Of a stretch of DNA of 64,000 nucleotides, positions 8,775-39,208 are shown piece by piece. The position numbers were made by a program, and so were the translations under genes. Positions within the stretch are counted from its first letter, which is position 1. Every line of letters starts with the position of its first letter. This DNA is from a cyanobiont of Ornithocercus magnificus (GTDB lineage Bacteria; Cyanobacteriota; Cyanobacteriia; PCC-6307; Cyanobiaceae), in the NCBI GenBank assembly GCA_007996965.1, contig BIMP01000001.1, positions 744,001 through 808,000 of the forward strand, read 5' to 3'. The notes beneath the pieces are model-generated. The model was not told the origin of the DNA, did no database searches, and was given only the letters and a program-made list of their open reading frames with translations.

Positions 8775-9866
8775 TCACATAATCTGGTTACCTACCCATT
8801 CAGCAGTGGCTGGCATTAACAACACACCATTACGGTAATGGCCCGCAGCTAAAATTAGGCCAGGTTCAACAACCATAAGTAGCGGTGCTGCCTGACCTTT
8901 AGGTCGAGCTCTTTCACCGTGCCAGTGATTAACTACACTGCAGCGCTTTAGCCAAGCAGGTGCATCCCCCTCAAGTTCCCTCAACTGATCTATTTGTCTG
9001 GGCGAAGGGTTTTGTCCAGGCTCGATGGTAGCCCCTAGCCAAAGCCGCCGCGGACCTATTGGTATGAGGTTAACTCCCCGGCTAACCATAACAGCGGGCC
9101 AATTTGCCCAACTGCTGCTGTCATCCTCTGTCTCTAGGGTAAGAGCTTGGCCAAGAATAGGTTCTTGGGGTATCTTGCGCCCGAGGTTTTGCAATAGATT
9201 AGAGCTTTCCCGAGCTGCACAAAGAATAACTGTCTCGCAGTGCAGTTCAGCCCCAGTCTCTAACCCCAGTCTCCATCGTACACTTTTCTTCCCCTTCAAG
9301 TGCTCTAGGTAGCATGCCTTCGAAGCGATCATTGTTACATTGCTAAGTATCAGAGCCTTCCTTAAAGCGGCTTGAAGTGCTAGGGGATTAATGCAACCAT
9401 CGTTGCGTGAAAGTAGGGCACCATGTTGCGCGTCGGGCCAAGATCTACCTGAGCTTAGGATAGAGGCAGTAGTTAGCTCAGCAGGCAGCCAAGTAAGTCC
9501 CAGCTCACTTCGCTCATGTGCCAAAGACTGCAATCTCACTGCTTCTTTACCTGAGGCAGCTAACTGGATTAGAGGTTGTCGCAGACTAAGGTCAGTGGAT
9601 GGTGCTAAGTGCTGCAAATCCTTGAGCCAAATAGGCCATAGAGCCATACTGCGTTGTCGAAGTCGCCAAGATCGACCACTAGAGCGACTGAATATGTTGC
9701 CCATGAGCACACCAAGTGAGGCACTTGTTCCAGACGGAGCTCCTCTATGAGGGGGGTAACTTAGAGACGAATCAATCAATGTGATGCTTAAGCCTCGACT
9801 GGCGAGATACCAGGCTGTGCCAGCACCAATAGCGCCAGCCCCGACAATTGCGATTGGAATACTCAG
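8775..9866 (-). CDS. FAD-dependent oxidoreductase, DAO/glycine-oxidase-like; start codon apparently CTG
   Basis: A member of the D-amino-acid oxidase / ThiO-type flavoenzyme family, probably oxidising an amine or amino acid. The FAD-binding fold is at the extreme N-terminus: IAIVGAGAIGAGTAWYLASRG leads into ITLID, with GxGxxG. This segment lies upstream of the first ATG of the frame (9779), so an ATG-only call would miss the cofactor site. The C-terminal RLWLGATIEPG and LILAAGHYRNGVLLMPAT are the conserved DAO end (GHYRNG). The frame runs back into the psbQ stop, and at the expected start there is CTGA where an overlapping ATGA would normally lie. I therefore place the start at CTG 9866 (363 residues). 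Immediately downstream of psbQ and probably co-transcribed. Family firm, substrate unknown. Confidence 0.72.
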   Translation of the reverse strand: MSIPIAIVGAGAIGAGTAWYLASRGLSITLIDSSLSYPPHRGAPSGTSASLGVLMGNIFSRSSGRSWRLRQRSMALWPIWLKDLQHLAPSTDLSLRQPLIQLAASGKEAVRLQSLAHERSELGLTWLPAELTTASILSSGRSWPDAQHGALLSRNDGCINPLALQAALRKALILSNVTMIASKACYLEHLKGKKSVRWRLGLETGAELHCETVILCAARESSNLLQNLGRKIPQEPILGQALTLETEDDSSSWANWPAVMVSRGVNLIPIGPRRLWLGATIEPGQNPSPRQIDQLRELEGDAPAWLKRCSVVNHWHGERARPKGQAAPLLMVVEPGLILAAGHYRNGVLLMPATAEWVGNQIM

Positions 9867-10318
9867 TTCAATGCCTGAGCAGGAATTAGTTCGGCATAGC
9901 TCTTAAATCCTTTCACAACAAGCTCGTAGCTTTTATCAAGTCGGTCAGCGCTTTGCAAACGGGCTGCTTCGTCAAGATCTGCCAGAGCTTCCTTGAGAAT
10001 CTGCGAGCGTTTTTCTGCTTCTGGAAGATCAGCAGGAAGTAGACGCTTGTTTATGTAAAGCATTTCCCGGCCCACCTCCTGCATCGGACCATGAATAAGG
10101 TTGCGGGCATAAGTCCAGTCACGGTTGCTGACAAGGGAGGCCAACTCTGGTAAGCGCACCATTGCTGCTTGGTAACCTTCGGCTTGGCGTCGGATCACAG
10201 CCATGTCCTCCGGACTGATTGCGCTTGGCTGGGCCTTGCCACTACTGCAAGCAGCAAGGAAAAAGCAGAGGGTAAAGCAGAGATAGAGCGCCACCAGGCG
10301 TCTTAGGGTGCTCAGCAT
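9863..10318 (-). CDS. psbQ: PsbQ (CyanoQ) photosystem II lipoprotein
   Basis: Extrinsic, lumen-side subunit that stabilises the oxygen-evolving centre of photosystem II. 151 residues: a basic and hydrophobic signal peptide (MLSTLRRLVALYLCFTLCFF) with lipobox LAAC, Cys24 being the predicted lipidated residue, then a four-helix-bundle-like domain (e.g. RNLIHGPMQEVGREMLYINK, then AARLQSADRLDKSYELVVKGF). Its stop overlaps the presumed CTG start of the FAD oxidoreductase. Upstream about 500 bp is empty. It is direct evidence for an oxygenic phototroph. Confidence 0.9.
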   Translation of the reverse strand: MLSTLRRLVALYLCFTLCFFLAACSSGKAQPSAISPEDMAVIRRQAEGYQAAMVRLPELASLVSNRDWTYARNLIHGPMQEVGREMLYINKRLLPADLPEAEKRSQILKEALADLDEAARLQSADRLDKSYELVVKGFKSYAELIPAQALN

Positions 10319-10827: not shown

Positions 10828-12135
10828 GTGACAGCACAGCAGCTTCAACGTGAACTGGCTACTGTGTTTACCCGAGAATGCCCTCCAGCAGCTAGCCGCG
10901 TTGGCTGGATCTGTTTCCAAATAGGTCTGATTTTGCTGCCATCTAGTGCTCTATTTGCCACGCTTTTATTTATTGTATCTTTGGCACAGAGTAGTTGCTA
11001 CCGGGGGCGTCAGTATTGGTCTGATGCTTGGAATCTATCACTAATCATAACTGGTTTTTTGATGCTAGCTGGTGCTATCCAAGCCTATTCCGGTGCTCTT
11101 GCCTGGATTGGTCTAACCAATTGGTTACCTCTTTTTTGGGGATTTTGGGGTTTTCAAGCTTACCTAGCTACACCAGCATCACGACGGCAAAGCGGACTGC
11201 ATTTAGTCGTAGGAACTGTTCCTGTCGTGCTCACAGGTCTCGGCCAAATTTGGTGGGGTTGGCATGGGCCTTGGTCACTGTTTGGAGGACTCGTAGTTTG
11301 GTTCATCGCTCCTGGGGGTGAGCCGTTGGGGCGCCTCTCCGGCCTATTTGATTATGCCAACATCGCTGGAGCTTGGTTGTCTCTAGTTTGGCCCTTTGCA
11401 CTGGCAATGCTCTTTCGGCCTAGCAAGTGCCGCGTGCTAAGCATCGCGGCGCTAGTACTTGCTGGATCCCTAGTAACAGCACTTGTGCTTACAGGGTCCC
11501 GTAATGCTTGGGGAGCTTTGCTATTAGCCACACCATTTGTGTTGGGTCCAATGCAATGGTCTTGGTCTCTGCCATTGCTGCTGCTGCTGCCATTGCTGCT
11601 GCTGCTGCTAGCGATTCTCCCTGGTGTACCAGATGCACTAAGGCTACAAGCTCGCCAGGTTGTTCCTGAGGGACTCTGGGCCCGAATCACAGATCTCCAC
11701 TATGGAGAATCTCGTGGTTTGCAACACACTCGGCTCAGTCAATGGAATACTGTTGCCTGCTTGATTGCCGAGAGGCCCTGGCTTGGCTGGGGAGCTGCTG
11801 CCTTCACAATTCTCTACCCAATGATTACTAGTAAAGTTTGGCATGGCCACAGTCACAATCTACCGTTTGAACTAGCTGTTAGCTATGGGCTTCCAGTAGC
11901 GCTTCTAGTTATTGGGACAGTACTAGCCTTGCTGATCCTTGGATTATATTGTAGGGTGCTTGAGCTAGAAATTTTTGACCGTGCCTGGTGGTCAGCTGCT
12001 CTTGTGTCAGTTGTCTTGCACAGTAGTGATTTACCCTTCTTTGATAGCCGCCTCAACATTGCTGGTTGGATTTTGCTAGCCGGCCTGCGCTGCCTAATTA
12101 AGTCAAGCCCACCGGCTACAGCTCCAATGCCCTAA
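10828..12135 (+). CDS. O-antigen ligase / polymerase-like membrane protein
   Basis: 435 residues, GTG start, with ten or more hydrophobic helices. The middle contains the Wzy_C family landmarks: GRLSGLFDYANIAGAWLSL, then LVLTGSRNAWGALLL, and a long external loop ending in RPWLGWGAAAF and HGHSHNLPFELAVSYG (the conserved H-N-x-x-x-x-x-x-E/G region). Such proteins join or polymerise sugar chains on the outer side of the inner membrane; the cyanobacterial IctB group is also related, so a carbon-uptake label is sometimes given but is not supported here. An 18-base tandem duplication lengthens one helix. The 3' end overlaps the convergent radical SAM gene by 20 bp. Confidence 0.8.
   Translation: MTAQQLQRELATVFTRECPPAASRVGWICFQIGLILLPSSALFATLLFIVSLAQSSCYRGRQYWSDAWNLSLIITGFLMLAGAIQAYSGALAWIGLTNWLPLFWGFWGFQAYLATPASRRQSGLHLVVGTVPVVLTGLGQIWWGWHGPWSLFGGLVVWFIAPGGEPLGRLSGLFDYANIAGAWLSLVWPFALAMLFRPSKCRVLSIAALVLAGSLVTALVLTGSRNAWGALLLATPFVLGPMQWSWSLPLLLLLPLLLLLLAILPGVPDALRLQARQVVPEGLWARITDLHYGESRGLQHTRLSQWNTVACLIAERPWLGWGAAAFTILYPMITSKVWHGHSHNLPFELAVSYGLPVALLVIGTVLALLILGLYCRVLELEIFDRAWWSAALVSVVLHSSDLPFFDSRLNIAGWILLAGLRCLIKSSPPATAPMP
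11572..11607 (+). repeat. Two exact 18-bp tandem copies inside the O-antigen-ligase-like gene
   Basis: CCATTGCTGCTGCTGCTG occurs twice in direct succession (11572-11589 and 11590-11607), followed by CTA. It encodes PLLLLL twice in a membrane helix. The CTG microrepeat inside makes this a slippage-prone site; changes by multiples of three keep the frame. Confidence 0.9.
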
Positions 12136-13753
12136 GGCGCTGTTCTGCCAGGATCTCTAGGCCAAAATGGCCTGTAATGTGCAGCCAGGGCAACACAGAT
12201 GTGGTTGGCCAGTCCTCGTGAACTAGTTTTTCCCAAGCTGGTGGAAGCGGTAGCAAATCAGGCCCTGTTCCTATCTCCCCAGACCGGACTGCCCGGTAGG
12301 CCCGCTTCCACCCTCCTAGGCTTTCCTGCGAGCCTCGTACTGTGGCAATAACAGGGGCAAGACGACGATCACTGCGGGCGAGCAGTGCCTGAATTAGACT
12401 CCAGCCATAACTCTCTGCCCTCAAGCTAATACCCTTAGGCTTCAAGTATTTGGCAAGTATCTTTAGGCGCTTTTCAGCTTCTGGACGCACACCCTGCCAT
12501 TGAAAAGGTGTGTGGGCTTTGGGCACAAAGGTGCTCACACTGAGTGTTAGATGTAGCCCTTTGACATTTTTCTTTAATCTTAGAAGGAGTTCAGCAGTCG
12601 CCTCAATATCACTCTCCTCTTCAGTTGGTAAACCAACCATGCCATAGATCTTTAACCTGCTTAGGCCTGCATCGCGTGCGTAATGAGCAGCAGCGACAAT
12701 TTCCTCGGGTTCAAGCTTCTTATTTACTAAGCGACGTATACGGTCACTGCCACTTTCTATAGCTATAGTAAGGGATTTACTGCCTCGTTTTGCTAGAATG
12801 CGTCCTAGTTCTGGCGTTACGGTAGATGCTCTTACCGAGCTGATACTAACATGTGTGCCGTCGAAGTGATCCTTGTCAAGCCAGCACAATAGCTCATTAA
12901 ATTGAGGATGTTGAGTTACTGAAGCTCCTAGCAAGCCAAGACGTTTAGTGACGGCTAGACCTCTTTCTACCGCTGGTATTAGTGCATCTTGTAGCGAAGC
13001 TGCCCGAAACGGCAGATTTGAGTAGCTAGCTAGGCAGAACCGACAGAGTTCTGGACAGCCACGAGCTACTTCCAGCATGTAGATTTCAGGCCAAGCTGCA
13101 TCTGGAGTAATTACTGTGGAACAGGCTAAGTTGCTATTGCGCCAAGTTTGCTTACTTACCTTAGCAGGTATGTCTGGTGTAATGGGATCAACTGATTTTA
13201 GATTGCCCTCACTGTCATACTGGGGCATATACAGAGCTGGTATATATATGCCAGGGATTTTGGCTAAAGCATGCAAGCGCTGAGCCCGGGGTAAATTAAT
13301 CCCAGCACGTATGTTATCGATAAAGATTGGTAGCAGTTCCTCGCCATCCCCAAGAAGTACAGCATCCAAGAAAGGTGCTAGCGGCTCTGGATTGGCTGTT
13401 AACACTGGTCCACCCCCAAAGACAATTGGGTCTGTTTCACCCCGCTGAGAACTCCATAGTGGAATTTGCTGACGTTCGAGCAGATCTAAAAGTACTGGTC
13501 CATCAAGCTCCCAGCTTAGAGATAAGCCGAACAGGTCACAGTGCTGATAAGCCGGGTCACTCTGGTCTGTAAACAGGCGTCGTACATCGAGATCACGACG
13601 TTGTGCTAAGGCAGCCCAGATAATCTGATAGCCAAGGCTTGTAATACCGACTGAGTAGGTGCTTGGGAATGCCAGGATAACCCGTAACGCTCCTGGTTCT
13701 GGAACGGCGGGTTCGAATAGAAGTGTCTCGCGTTTCAGCGGAGTCTCATGCAG
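12116..13753 (-). CDS. B12-binding-domain radical SAM protein; start probably CTG
   Basis: Iron-sulfur enzyme using S-adenosylmethionine for radical chemistry. The N-terminal part (ETLLFEPAVPEPGALRVILA, FPSTYSVGITSLGYQIIW, then IVFGGGPVLTANPEPLAPF) is the cobalamin-binding-like fold typical of the family. The 4Fe-4S motif CPELCRFC gives C233, C237 and C240 in this 545-residue model, inside EVARGCPELCRFC. It resembles a widespread cyanobacterial gene of unknown substrate. An ATG/GTG-only call starts at 13405 and loses about 116 conserved residues. The frame is closed by TGA at 13757-13759; between it and the conserved sequence the only plausible start is CTG at 13753. Alternatively ATG 13760 with a one-base frameshift. 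No other genes in the operon. Confidence 0.78.
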   Translation of the reverse strand: MHETPLKRETLLFEPAVPEPGALRVILAFPSTYSVGITSLGYQIIWAALAQRRDLDVRRLFTDQSDPAYQHCDLFGLSLSWELDGPVLLDLLERQQIPLWSSQRGETDPIVFGGGPVLTANPEPLAPFLDAVLLGDGEELLPIFIDNIRAGINLPRAQRLHALAKIPGIYIPALYMPQYDSEGNLKSVDPITPDIPAKVSKQTWRNSNLACSTVITPDAAWPEIYMLEVARGCPELCRFCLASYSNLPFRAASLQDALIPAVERGLAVTKRLGLLGASVTQHPQFNELLCWLDKDHFDGTHVSISSVRASTVTPELGRILAKRGSKSLTIAIESGSDRIRRLVNKKLEPEEIVAAAHYARDAGLSRLKIYGMVGLPTEEESDIEATAELLLRLKKNVKGLHLTLSVSTFVPKAHTPFQWQGVRPEAEKRLKILAKYLKPKGISLRAESYGWSLIQALLARSDRRLAPVIATVRGSQESLGGWKRAYRAVRSGEIGTGPDLLPLPPAWEKLVHEDWPTTSVLPWLHITGHFGLEILAEQRLRALEL

Positions 13754-13928
13754 GGCTCATACCATACTGAAGCTTGAGTGCCTACTTGGCTAAGGAAAGA
13801 GCTACTGGATTTATTCCTACCTTCTCATTGCAGTCCCATTTTTTGTGGCACTGAGACTTAGGTTCACTCTCTTGGTTGCAAAAGTTATATACGCGATACT
13901 TGTAGGATTGCACATAATCCCTCTTTTC

Positions 13929-15275
13929 TCAGTTATATTCTAGGATCATTTGTCGTTCGTAGATTGAGCGCTGGTCAAAAGTTCTGGCTACTAAAAAGCT
14001 GATTAGACAGGCCACAAGAATTGGCTTGAGGATTAATAGATCTTTAGTAAGAGCAAAAACCAGAAACATGGCAGTGATAGGGGTTCGCGCGCAACCAGCG
14101 ACAAAAGCCCCCATGCCAGCAAATACGTAAGTAGTCGGCACGTACCCTGTAAAGGCCTCAGTCCAGTCACCACATACTAGACCTATAGATCCTCCAAGAA
14201 TAAGCATAGGGGCAAAGAGACCTCCAGGAGCGCCGGATGCTGCAGCCAAAGCTGTACTGAAGAAGAGTACCGCAAAGATAGCTAAGGCTAGTTGTATGTT
14301 TGCCCTACTATCAGCAATCAGATGCTGCAGCTCAGCAATATCATAGAAAATGCTTGGCAATGTGCCGTAGATGCTGCCTAGAATACCTCCGCTAAGTGCT
14401 ATACGTAGCACTGGCCTGTTGGCAAACCAGATATCGCCACAGTGCTGCATCGCTAGTACGTAGCGACAATAAGCTTCGGCAAGCAAGCCAGTAATGCATC
14501 CTAGTCCAACCAGATAGCCTAAATCGATTGGTAAAAATTGTACTAACGAGGTGTACTCCCGCTCTAGTTGAAAACTAAGACTGCTATATAGTCCAGATAC
14601 CGAGCCTGATCCAAGTATGCTTAGGGTGTCTGCCCAAGCATCAGCCCAGAATGTAGTAACTATAACTAGTAGTAGAACTACTGGCCGAGCTGAATGCAGT
14701 AATTCTTCTACAGCATATACAAACCCACCGATTGGCGCACTGAATACTGCGGCGATGCCCGCACCACTACCAGCTGCTACAATTACTCTTTGAAAAGCGG
14801 CTGGAACCTTTAACCATTTAGCCATTTGCCAGGCAACTGAGCCACCCATCTGCACAGCTGGTCCTTCAGGCCCGAGTGGAAATCCACTACCAATCGCAAC
14901 TATGCCAGCAATCAGCTTTGTCAAGCCTACCTGTAGTCCCATTGGAACTGAGCGATGGTGTAGGAAGCTCATAATGTGTGTTATCCCAGAGCCACTAGCA
15001 GCGGGAGCCAGCCAGACAACCAACCACCCAGACACCAGGCCACCTGCAATACCGAGAACTGGCAGAGCAATCAGGGATGGCAGTTTAGCCAAGAGCTGCA
15101 GTCTCCAGTTGCTGAGCCAACTAACTCCAGTCTTGAACAGGATACTTGTTAAAGCGGCGCCCAGGCCAGTTAACATCAAAGACAGAGCAACTGCCAGCCA
15201 GCGTTGTTCCAGCAGTTGACGGATGTTGCTGGGTCCCAACCGGTAAAGCCGTTGAAAACTCTTCAGTGCTGCCAT
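13929..15275 (-). CDS. ClC-family chloride channel / H+-Cl- antiporter
   Basis: 448 residues with many hydrophobic helices. The three ion-path signatures are present: GSGIT (95-99), GFPLGPEGPA (131-140, gating glutamate E137 in GPEGP) and GSGAGIAAVFSAPIGG (169-184), followed by an internal Glu pair at 190-191 in the position of the proton-transfer glutamate of exchangers. That combination suggests a Cl-/H+ exchanger rather than a passive channel. No cytoplasmic CBS domains. Its ATG lies 8 bp after the acnB stop on the same strand, so it may be read as part of an acnB transcript. Confidence 0.92.
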   Translation of the reverse strand: MAALKSFQRLYRLGPSNIRQLLEQRWLAVALSLMLTGLGAALTSILFKTGVSWLSNWRLQLLAKLPSLIALPVLGIAGGLVSGWLVVWLAPAASGSGITHIMSFLHHRSVPMGLQVGLTKLIAGIVAIGSGFPLGPEGPAVQMGGSVAWQMAKWLKVPAAFQRVIVAAGSGAGIAAVFSAPIGGFVYAVEELLHSARPVVLLLVIVTTFWADAWADTLSILGSGSVSGLYSSLSFQLEREYTSLVQFLPIDLGYLVGLGCITGLLAEAYCRYVLAMQHCGDIWFANRPVLRIALSGGILGSIYGTLPSIFYDIAELQHLIADSRANIQLALAIFAVLFFSTALAAASGAPGGLFAPMLILGGSIGLVCGDWTEAFTGYVPTTYVFAGMGAFVAGCARTPITAMFLVFALTKDLLILKPILVACLISFLVARTFDQRSIYERQMILEYN

Positions 15276-38584: not shown

Positions 38585-38623
38585 CTGAACAAGTCAGGAT
38601 CGCTACTGCTGTCCTCGCCATCC

Positions 38624-39208
38624 TTGGTATGGCAAGCAGCACTGAGTTCGGTGCTCAGTGCTGAAGGCCCCGATCTGCTTCCAGGACCCTGGCGCCTGAT
38701 GCTTCTCGGAGACGGCAGCCCGACGCGCCATTTACGACTGCTCACTGGACATGCAGTAAGTGTCAGCTTGATTGCCATGGAACCTGATGACCTTTCTGAC
38801 AGTGGTACCCCAGACGAAGTTGCCGAGCTTGACCCTCCTCTGCTGAGGCGCCAGGTCTGGCTGTGCTGTGGCAATGAGACCCTAGGCTGGGCTGAGAGCT
38901 GGTGGAACCTTCATGAAGCGGAGGAGAACCTAAGGCAGCGAGATCAACCGGTTTGGCTCAACCTTACACAAGGACGATCCGAATTGTTCCGGGAGGTAGA
39001 TGGGCTAGCTTTAGTTAGAAGCGACTGGCTAGAAGCAGCTTTTGGGACTGCAGGACCATTTTGGAGTCGCCACTACCGTTTCTTCCGCCAGGGTCGCGAA
39101 CTCACTGTGATCCGTGAGGTGTTTAGCCCTGCCTTAGAACGCTGGCTGGGACCAGTCGGCCGCCCTGTAGAAACCTTAAGTTGCTCTGATAAGGCTAAAC
39201 AAAGATAA
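38624..39208 (+). CDS. Chorismate lyase-like (UbiC / DUF98 family) protein
   Basis: 194 residues from TTG 38624. PDLLPGPWRLMLLGDGSPTRHLRLLTGH matches the family opening (D-G-S-x-T-R-x-L), and VWLCCGNETLGWAESWW plus FWSRHYRFFRQGRELTVIREVF continue it. UbiC-type enzymes cleave chorismate to 4-hydroxybenzoate, the head-group precursor of plastoquinone in cyanobacteria. The frame continues upstream with sensible residues (NKSGSLLLSSPSLVWQ) to a stop at 38573, with no ATG; possible non-standard starts are CTG 38585 or ATT 38582, with AGAGAG just upstream. The true start is therefore unsettled. Stands alone. Confidence 0.76.
   Translation: MVWQAALSSVLSAEGPDLLPGPWRLMLLGDGSPTRHLRLLTGHAVSVSLIAMEPDDLSDSGTPDEVAELDPPLLRRQVWLCCGNETLGWAESWWNLHEAEENLRQRDQPVWLNLTQGRSELFREVDGLALVRSDWLEAAFGTAGPFWSRHYRFFRQGRELTVIREVFSPALERWLGPVGRPVETLSCSDKAKQR

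Follow-up and report, generated by a model that had tools for sequence, protein, structure and literature searches.

A probable CTG start codon conserved across the Cyanobiaceae in a gene for a B12-type radical SAM protein

The window, by which we mean the whole 64,000-nucleotide stretch of DNA from a cyanobiont of Ornithocercus magnificus that was analysed, contains a gene for a B12-type radical SAM protein whose reading frame has no ATG, GTG or TTG at its head. The likeliest interpretation is that this gene is intact and is translated from a CTG codon at position 13738. It is very probable that this CTG start is conserved across the Cyanobiaceae, with representatives in Prochlorococcus, Synechococcus and Cyanobium. 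The features of the gene and its surroundings are the following.

12116..13738, minus strand: B12-type radical SAM protein of 540 aa, read from CTG 13738 to the stop codon at 12118-12116, with domains PF19864 (Radical_SAM_N2) and PF04055 (Radical_SAM)
13736..13738, minus strand: putative CTG start codon of the radical SAM gene, conserved in the family
13751..13753, minus strand: in-frame CTG (CTG 13753), probably untranslated
13757..13759, minus strand: in-frame TGA that closes the radical SAM frame upstream (minus-strand translation)
13735..13749, minus strand: short ATG...TGA ORF in another frame, terminating on the CTGA of the radical SAM start
13929..15275, minus strand: ClC-type channel gene (PF00654), upstream of the radical SAM gene

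The original prediction held that the radical SAM gene lacks an ATG, GTG or TTG start and that the protein reaches upstream of its first legal start codon, and both statements were borne out. The frame is shut by TGA 13759-13757, the first canonical codon within it is GTG 13405, and the conserved part of the protein runs 111 codons beyond that GTG, which is located within the N-terminal domain. When translation is taken from CTG 13738 the PF19864 domain scores 97.9 bits (cut-off 29), versus 42.5 bits when it is taken from GTG 13405. PF04055 scores 66.5 bits (cut-off 29.5), and the gathering scores of both domains are passed. Across most of its length the protein also resembles TIGR03960 (rSAM_fuse_unch, B12-binding radical SAM; E 3.5e-77), although its 260.3 bits do not reach the curated cut-off of 462.3. 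A search of solved structures returned one weak relative, 9ccb_A, which covers the radical SAM core only. Two in-frame CTG codons, 13753 and 13738, lie between the closing TGA and the conserved block. The prediction had rightly considered a CTG start, but had placed it at 13753 and overlooked the second in-frame CTG, 13738, which is the conserved one.

A search of 40 related genomes for the radical SAM protein gave a match in 37 (in some of them to a paralogue only), and 30 loci were returned; many relatives also have a second match, at about 33% identity, whose open frame spans about 900 aa. In the in-frame DNA alignment of the relatives, conservation starts, as judged by eye, at the motif xTG-AAN-xxx-GAR-A(C/T)N-(C/T)TN-(C/T)TN-TT(C/T), which corresponds to CTG 13738 in the window. 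The alignment of the N-terminus with cyanobacterial orthologues, proposed earlier as a check, places the beginning of conservation at this codon, and no counterpart of CTG 13753 was found in the aligned relatives. Within a named set of 80 loci the start block is present in 77, and L048, L076 and L090 lack the motif as sought. Loci L032-L084 were assigned to the Cyanobiaceae by their names and identity, and include Synechococcus WH7803, Prochlorococcus and Cyanobium; all 51 rows among them that contain the block have CTG at the start column. Outside the family (26 rows found of L085-L111) the start column is occupied by a Phe codon and once by the Leu codon TTA, and a canonical codon is present upstream in 26 of 26 loci, at a distance of 3-6 codons in 25 of them. 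The same alignments bear on the alternative, also raised in the prediction, that translation starts at ATG 13760 and then undergoes a one-base frameshift. That ATG exists but is out of the radical SAM frame, no upstream ATG was seen that the aligned relatives have in common, and the start CTG of L056 and L083 is immediately preceded by a TAA in the same frame. We consider this alternative extremely improbable.

For the counts, the family loci were pooled (100 had the block) and copies identical around the start were removed, which left 79 distinct loci; L048 and L142 do not have the complete motif, L001 duplicates L002 and was omitted, and the pool was confined to family loci of the radical SAM gene. 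The first codon reads CTG in 78 of the 79 loci and TTG in the other one. No in-frame ATG, GTG or TTG is present between the upstream stop and the CTG in 62 of them, and in 13 of those 62 the stop is located at most three codons from the CTG. On the sequence evidence, chance does not account for the missing canonical start, which recurs in 62 of 79 distinct relatives. The remaining 17 loci do contain an upstream in-frame canonical codon, at scattered distances (in L003 an ATG lies four codons upstream of the CTG), and the species concerned may therefore not use the CTG. A WH5701-like group (L047, L050, L052, L058 and L059) has a GTG 12 codons upstream in common, and its codon 2 encodes Asp instead of Asn or Lys; this group may have switched to a canonical start. 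The CTG had been described as a defect, a label that does not fit a codon conserved in nearly all distinct relatives. Likewise, a sequencing or assembly error, or a decayed pseudogene, would be conceivable for a cyanobiont genome represented by a single assembly of 16 contigs, but the same CTG is present in loci from isolates, single cells and MAGs, and the radical SAM protein is intact and conserved, which leaves this explanation with next to no probability.

Among 400 family genomes, the NTG start pattern was found in at least 240, and a form with ATG, GTG or TTG in at least five, which were inspected one by one. Among the five forms listed, G096 has the radical SAM gene with ATG and G009 has it with TTG. 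In G001 an ATG is located at the start column, seen over 19 codons only before the contig ends, and the matches in G017 and G109 are unrelated 17-codon ORFs. The adoption of ATG or TTG in three genomes indicates that the weak codon is not indispensable, and the replacement of CTG by ATG in two of them fits a start codon and not an internal leucine. The sequences thus show the position of the radical SAM start, its conservation and its interchange with ATG and TTG.

The conservation of CTG at the start column exceeds ordinary leucine conservation and synonymous codon use. For the 33 loci with a gene GC content below 45% (the low-GC set), CTG accounts for 5.5% of the leucine codons in the body of the radical SAM gene. 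The start column of these loci is CTG in 33 of 33, whereas the CTG share of the 26 other conserved Leu columns has its median at about 6% and never exceeds 12.1%. Within this set, no other synonymous column of the gene is as strongly constrained. The high-GC set of 45 loci, with 44 CTG and one TTG at the start column, is less telling because CTG is common there anyway (70% in the median Leu column and 93% in the next best one).

How general the feature is was assessed with reciprocal-best ORF pairs, from which shadow ORFs were removed. A comparison of 800 kb of the cyanobiont genome with 1.167 Mb of Synechococcus WH7803 yielded 357 pairs, and 400 kb of the AT-rich relative G010 yielded a further 147 pairs with the cyanobiont and 234 with WH7803. 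A score-based screen then looked, in each pair, for coding sequence conserved ahead of the first canonical codon of both orthologues. For 318 of the 357 pairs, the aligned part begins no more than 25 codons away from that codon. The screen produced 19 candidates in the WH7803 comparison, three among the 147 G010 pairs and one among the 234 WH7803-G010 pairs, and 16 of the 19 as well as all four others were discarded by eye. Of the 16, five at 954-958 kb, with 93-97% identity, were taken as the rRNA operon; the rest were either the ends of upstream genes read out of frame or brief, weak stretches ahead of a canonical start. This left three genes, all of them in the window: the radical SAM gene, a ThiO-like gene and a chorismate lyase-like gene. 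The window holds 44 of the 357 survey pairs, so a third match there is unremarkable. The survey score of the chorismate lyase-like gene (21) is no better than those of several discarded candidates, and the gene was accepted because its relatives bear out its CTG start. The survey is blind to genes with a chance upstream canonical codon and to those whose N-terminus is poorly conserved, so three should be read as a minimum.

Given that the 357 pairs left no more than these three genes, the feature is one of specific genes across the family and not of the genome in general. The original prediction had suspected a systematic feature of the genome, from a second gene nearby with the same trait; other cases do exist, and the ThiO-like gene with CTG 9866 is presumably the one meant, but the trait is a property of particular genes throughout the family. 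The prediction had also named two outcomes that would speak against it, an absence of other cases and a corrected ATG; other cases were found and a corrected ATG was not. The features of the two further genes are given below.

8775..9866, minus strand: ThiO-like FAD oxidoreductase (PF01266), 363 aa, putative second CTG-start gene
9864..9866, minus strand: putative CTG start of the ThiO-like gene, which overlaps the stop codon of the PsbQ-like gene as CTGA
9863-10318: PsbQ-like gene (PF05757), whose stop codon overlaps the ThiO-like CTG
38585..39208, plus strand: chorismate pyruvate-lyase-like gene (PF01947), 207 aa, putative third CTG-start gene, with CTG 38585

The ThiO-like protein passed PF01266, and its TIGR02352 (ThiO) score of 107.4 bits is below the curated cut-off of 250.8. 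An ATT was considered as its start and was rejected; the conserved codon is CTG 9866, two codons before the ATT. The start column of 54 distinct ThiO-like loci contains CTG in 23, TTG in one and another codon in 30. No canonical start is present upstream in 21 of the 23 CTG loci, and 16 of the 30 loci with another codon are also without a canonical start. For the chorismate lyase-like gene, 22 loci have the motif (L318 lacks it), of which 12 have only the CTG and 10 contain a canonical codon in frame. GGAG was seen by eye just upstream in 10 of the 12 CTG-only loci, and GTG takes the place of the CTG in L298 and L300. As far as the aligned loci tell, CTG is conserved in both genes, less uniformly than in the radical SAM gene.

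Some ThiO-like loci deviate from the common arrangement. Eight loci of Cyanobium/WH5701 type (L034, L046, L047, L051, L052, L054, L058 and L059) have no canonical in-frame start, and their CTG precedes the FAD motif by 19-22 codons, compared with 8 in the common arrangement; a relocation of the CTG start is possible there. The ThiO-like frame of L113 (from G002) opens with TAG CTA ATC AGA GAA GTT and has no NTG before the FAD motif; either CTA or ATC may serve as its start, or else the assembly may contain an error. In L124 the CTG column is occupied by CTC, and there is no NTG.

The presence of three CTG-start genes within one 64-kb window could also be taken as a sign of relaxed initiation, in which an altered IF3 or initiator tRNA would permit many near-cognate starts in the genome or the whole family. 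The small yield of the survey argues against this, and the initiation machinery is without clear anomaly. IF3 is present in the genome at 229.9 bits, well above the cut-off of 60, and its frame opens with an ATG. The initiator tRNA anticodon stem-loop CGGGCTCATAACCCG was found in 12 of 16 family genomes, including that of the cyanobiont, and in nine of nine outside the family; the four family genomes without an exact match (G002, G006, G007 and G013), which would favour relaxed initiation, are all incomplete drafts. Relaxed initiation is therefore, in our view, very unlikely. A change in the anticodon stem of the E. coli initiator tRNA lowers the discrimination against CUG in vitro (PMC11497404). 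In an E. coli system, the first two bases of the codon had to form Watson-Crick pairs to be tolerated by IF3 (PMC10158994); this stringency disfavours CUG and counts against the CTG start, since it fits a weak start but would also fit little initiation at all. It is a rather doubtful proposition that the three CUG-start genes (radical SAM, ThiO-like and chorismate lyase) constitute a family-wide translational control tuned to growth state, in which the three enzymes would be tuned together because CUG initiation depends on initiation-factor levels.

The region upstream of the radical SAM start differs between loci. In the window, about 190 nt separate the ClC stop codon from the CTG. In Synechococcus WH7803 the stop of the ClC gene, which ends at 2337419, overlaps the CTG as CTGA. 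The +1 frame is open for 465-531 codons and ends on a TGA over the start in 13 of the 79 loci (as CTGA in 12 and as TTGA in L007); from its length, this frame is probably the ClC gene in the loci other than WH7803. These 13 loci suggest that the start originated as a coupled 4-nt overlap, and ancestral coupling to the upstream ClC gene may have operated through CTGA. The overlap in WH7803 is like the ATGA and GTGA termination-reinitiation overlaps described in PMC10666635, in that start and stop overlap by 4 nt; it differs in the use of CTG and in that most loci lack a full-gene overlap and yet have kept the CTG.

Translational coupling is a rival to attenuation as the reason for keeping the CTG, not to the CTG start itself. 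If it held, the CTGA overlap would set ribosomes that finish the upstream gene on the CTG, and a good start codon would be unneeded. Besides the 13 radical SAM loci, 8 of the 23 ThiO-like CTG loci have an upstream frame open for at least 150 codons that ends at the start. However, loci without the overlap, such as that in the window, still keep the CTG, so coupling alone is no explanation, and the chorismate lyase-like gene mostly has its own Shine-Dalgarno site. An ATG-started upstream ORF ends at the CTGA in 28 of 68 CTGA loci versus 12.7 expected, but when the 20 loci with a long overlapping frame are excluded, the numbers are 13 of 48 versus 8.9 expected, and 40 of 500 shuffles are as high. 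Such ORFs are thus not clearly enriched where the long overlap is missing, which weakens the case for coupling, and a leader-peptide mechanism was rejected on the same grounds. Taken together, we regard coupling as the less probable reason, though one that deserves some weight. A Shine-Dalgarno match of at least 4 nt precedes the radical SAM CTG in 14 of the 79 loci (17.7%) versus 10.7% in shuffled sequence; a strong Shine-Dalgarno sequence was not found upstream of the CTG in these loci, matches being little above those in shuffles, which counts against the CTG start. Within positions 13600-14100, there was no Rfam match, and no promoter-like or terminator-like sites were found, an uninformative absence given that shuffles average 0.6 of each.

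We consider the chances roughly even that attenuation, the lowering of synthesis by a weak start, is the effect that has been selected for. Ribosomes would initiate the radical SAM protein at CUG with the initiator fMet-tRNA, and the weak codon would keep synthesis of the enzyme low or responsive to initiation conditions, in the manner of conserved AUU and AUA starts elsewhere. The infC gene of E. coli starts with AUU.

A conserved weak start codon is a kind already known. Conserved non-canonical starts in S. aureus are those of infC (AUA), ccpN (AUA) and cvfC1 (AUU); ccpN and cvfC1 reporters gave synthesis below that of the AUG version (PMC13009471). According to the same source, expression from three non-canonical starts of this species was about 10% of that from AUG when the medium was poor, and ccpN reached up to 30% in rich medium. 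The radical SAM gene resembles these cases in that a weak start codon is kept across species in an intact gene, and it has no in-frame canonical start, a conserved codon, and interchange with canonical starts. It differs in that the codon is CTG, the organisms are cyanobacteria and the gene encodes an enzyme; moreover, the S. aureus cases have a strong or extended Shine-Dalgarno sequence, which is not definitional, whereas the radical SAM gene does not (14/79). The parts of PMC11445065 examined contain no mention of CTG or CUG. Titles and abstract openings of the open-licence literature revealed nothing on CTG starts of these genes, an absence that is weak evidence; bacterial and phage papers that mention CTG starts do exist there. 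Nor did that literature, as represented mostly by titles and abstract openings, yield an example of metabolic genes whose CUG start is retained throughout a bacterial family. A family-wide CUG start offers a natural opportunity to ask why weak start codons persist, and since ATG, TTG and CTG versions occur naturally, the effect is directly testable. Gene finders limited to ATG, GTG and TTG would be expected to shorten or mis-start the radical SAM protein in many genomes, including those of abundant marine organisms.

Two minor observations concern the distribution of the radical SAM gene itself. Within the 400 family genomes, the start pattern is missing in nearly all members of the genus groups g18, g71 and g9; G017 (g18) has no radical SAM match and G008 (g9) only a match at the level of the paralogue, and the gene may be lost or diverged in these groups. 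G094, G095 and G217 have two copies of the start pattern per genome, which in G095 and G217 are located 2-4 kb apart on one contig, where a tandem duplication of the gene is possible.
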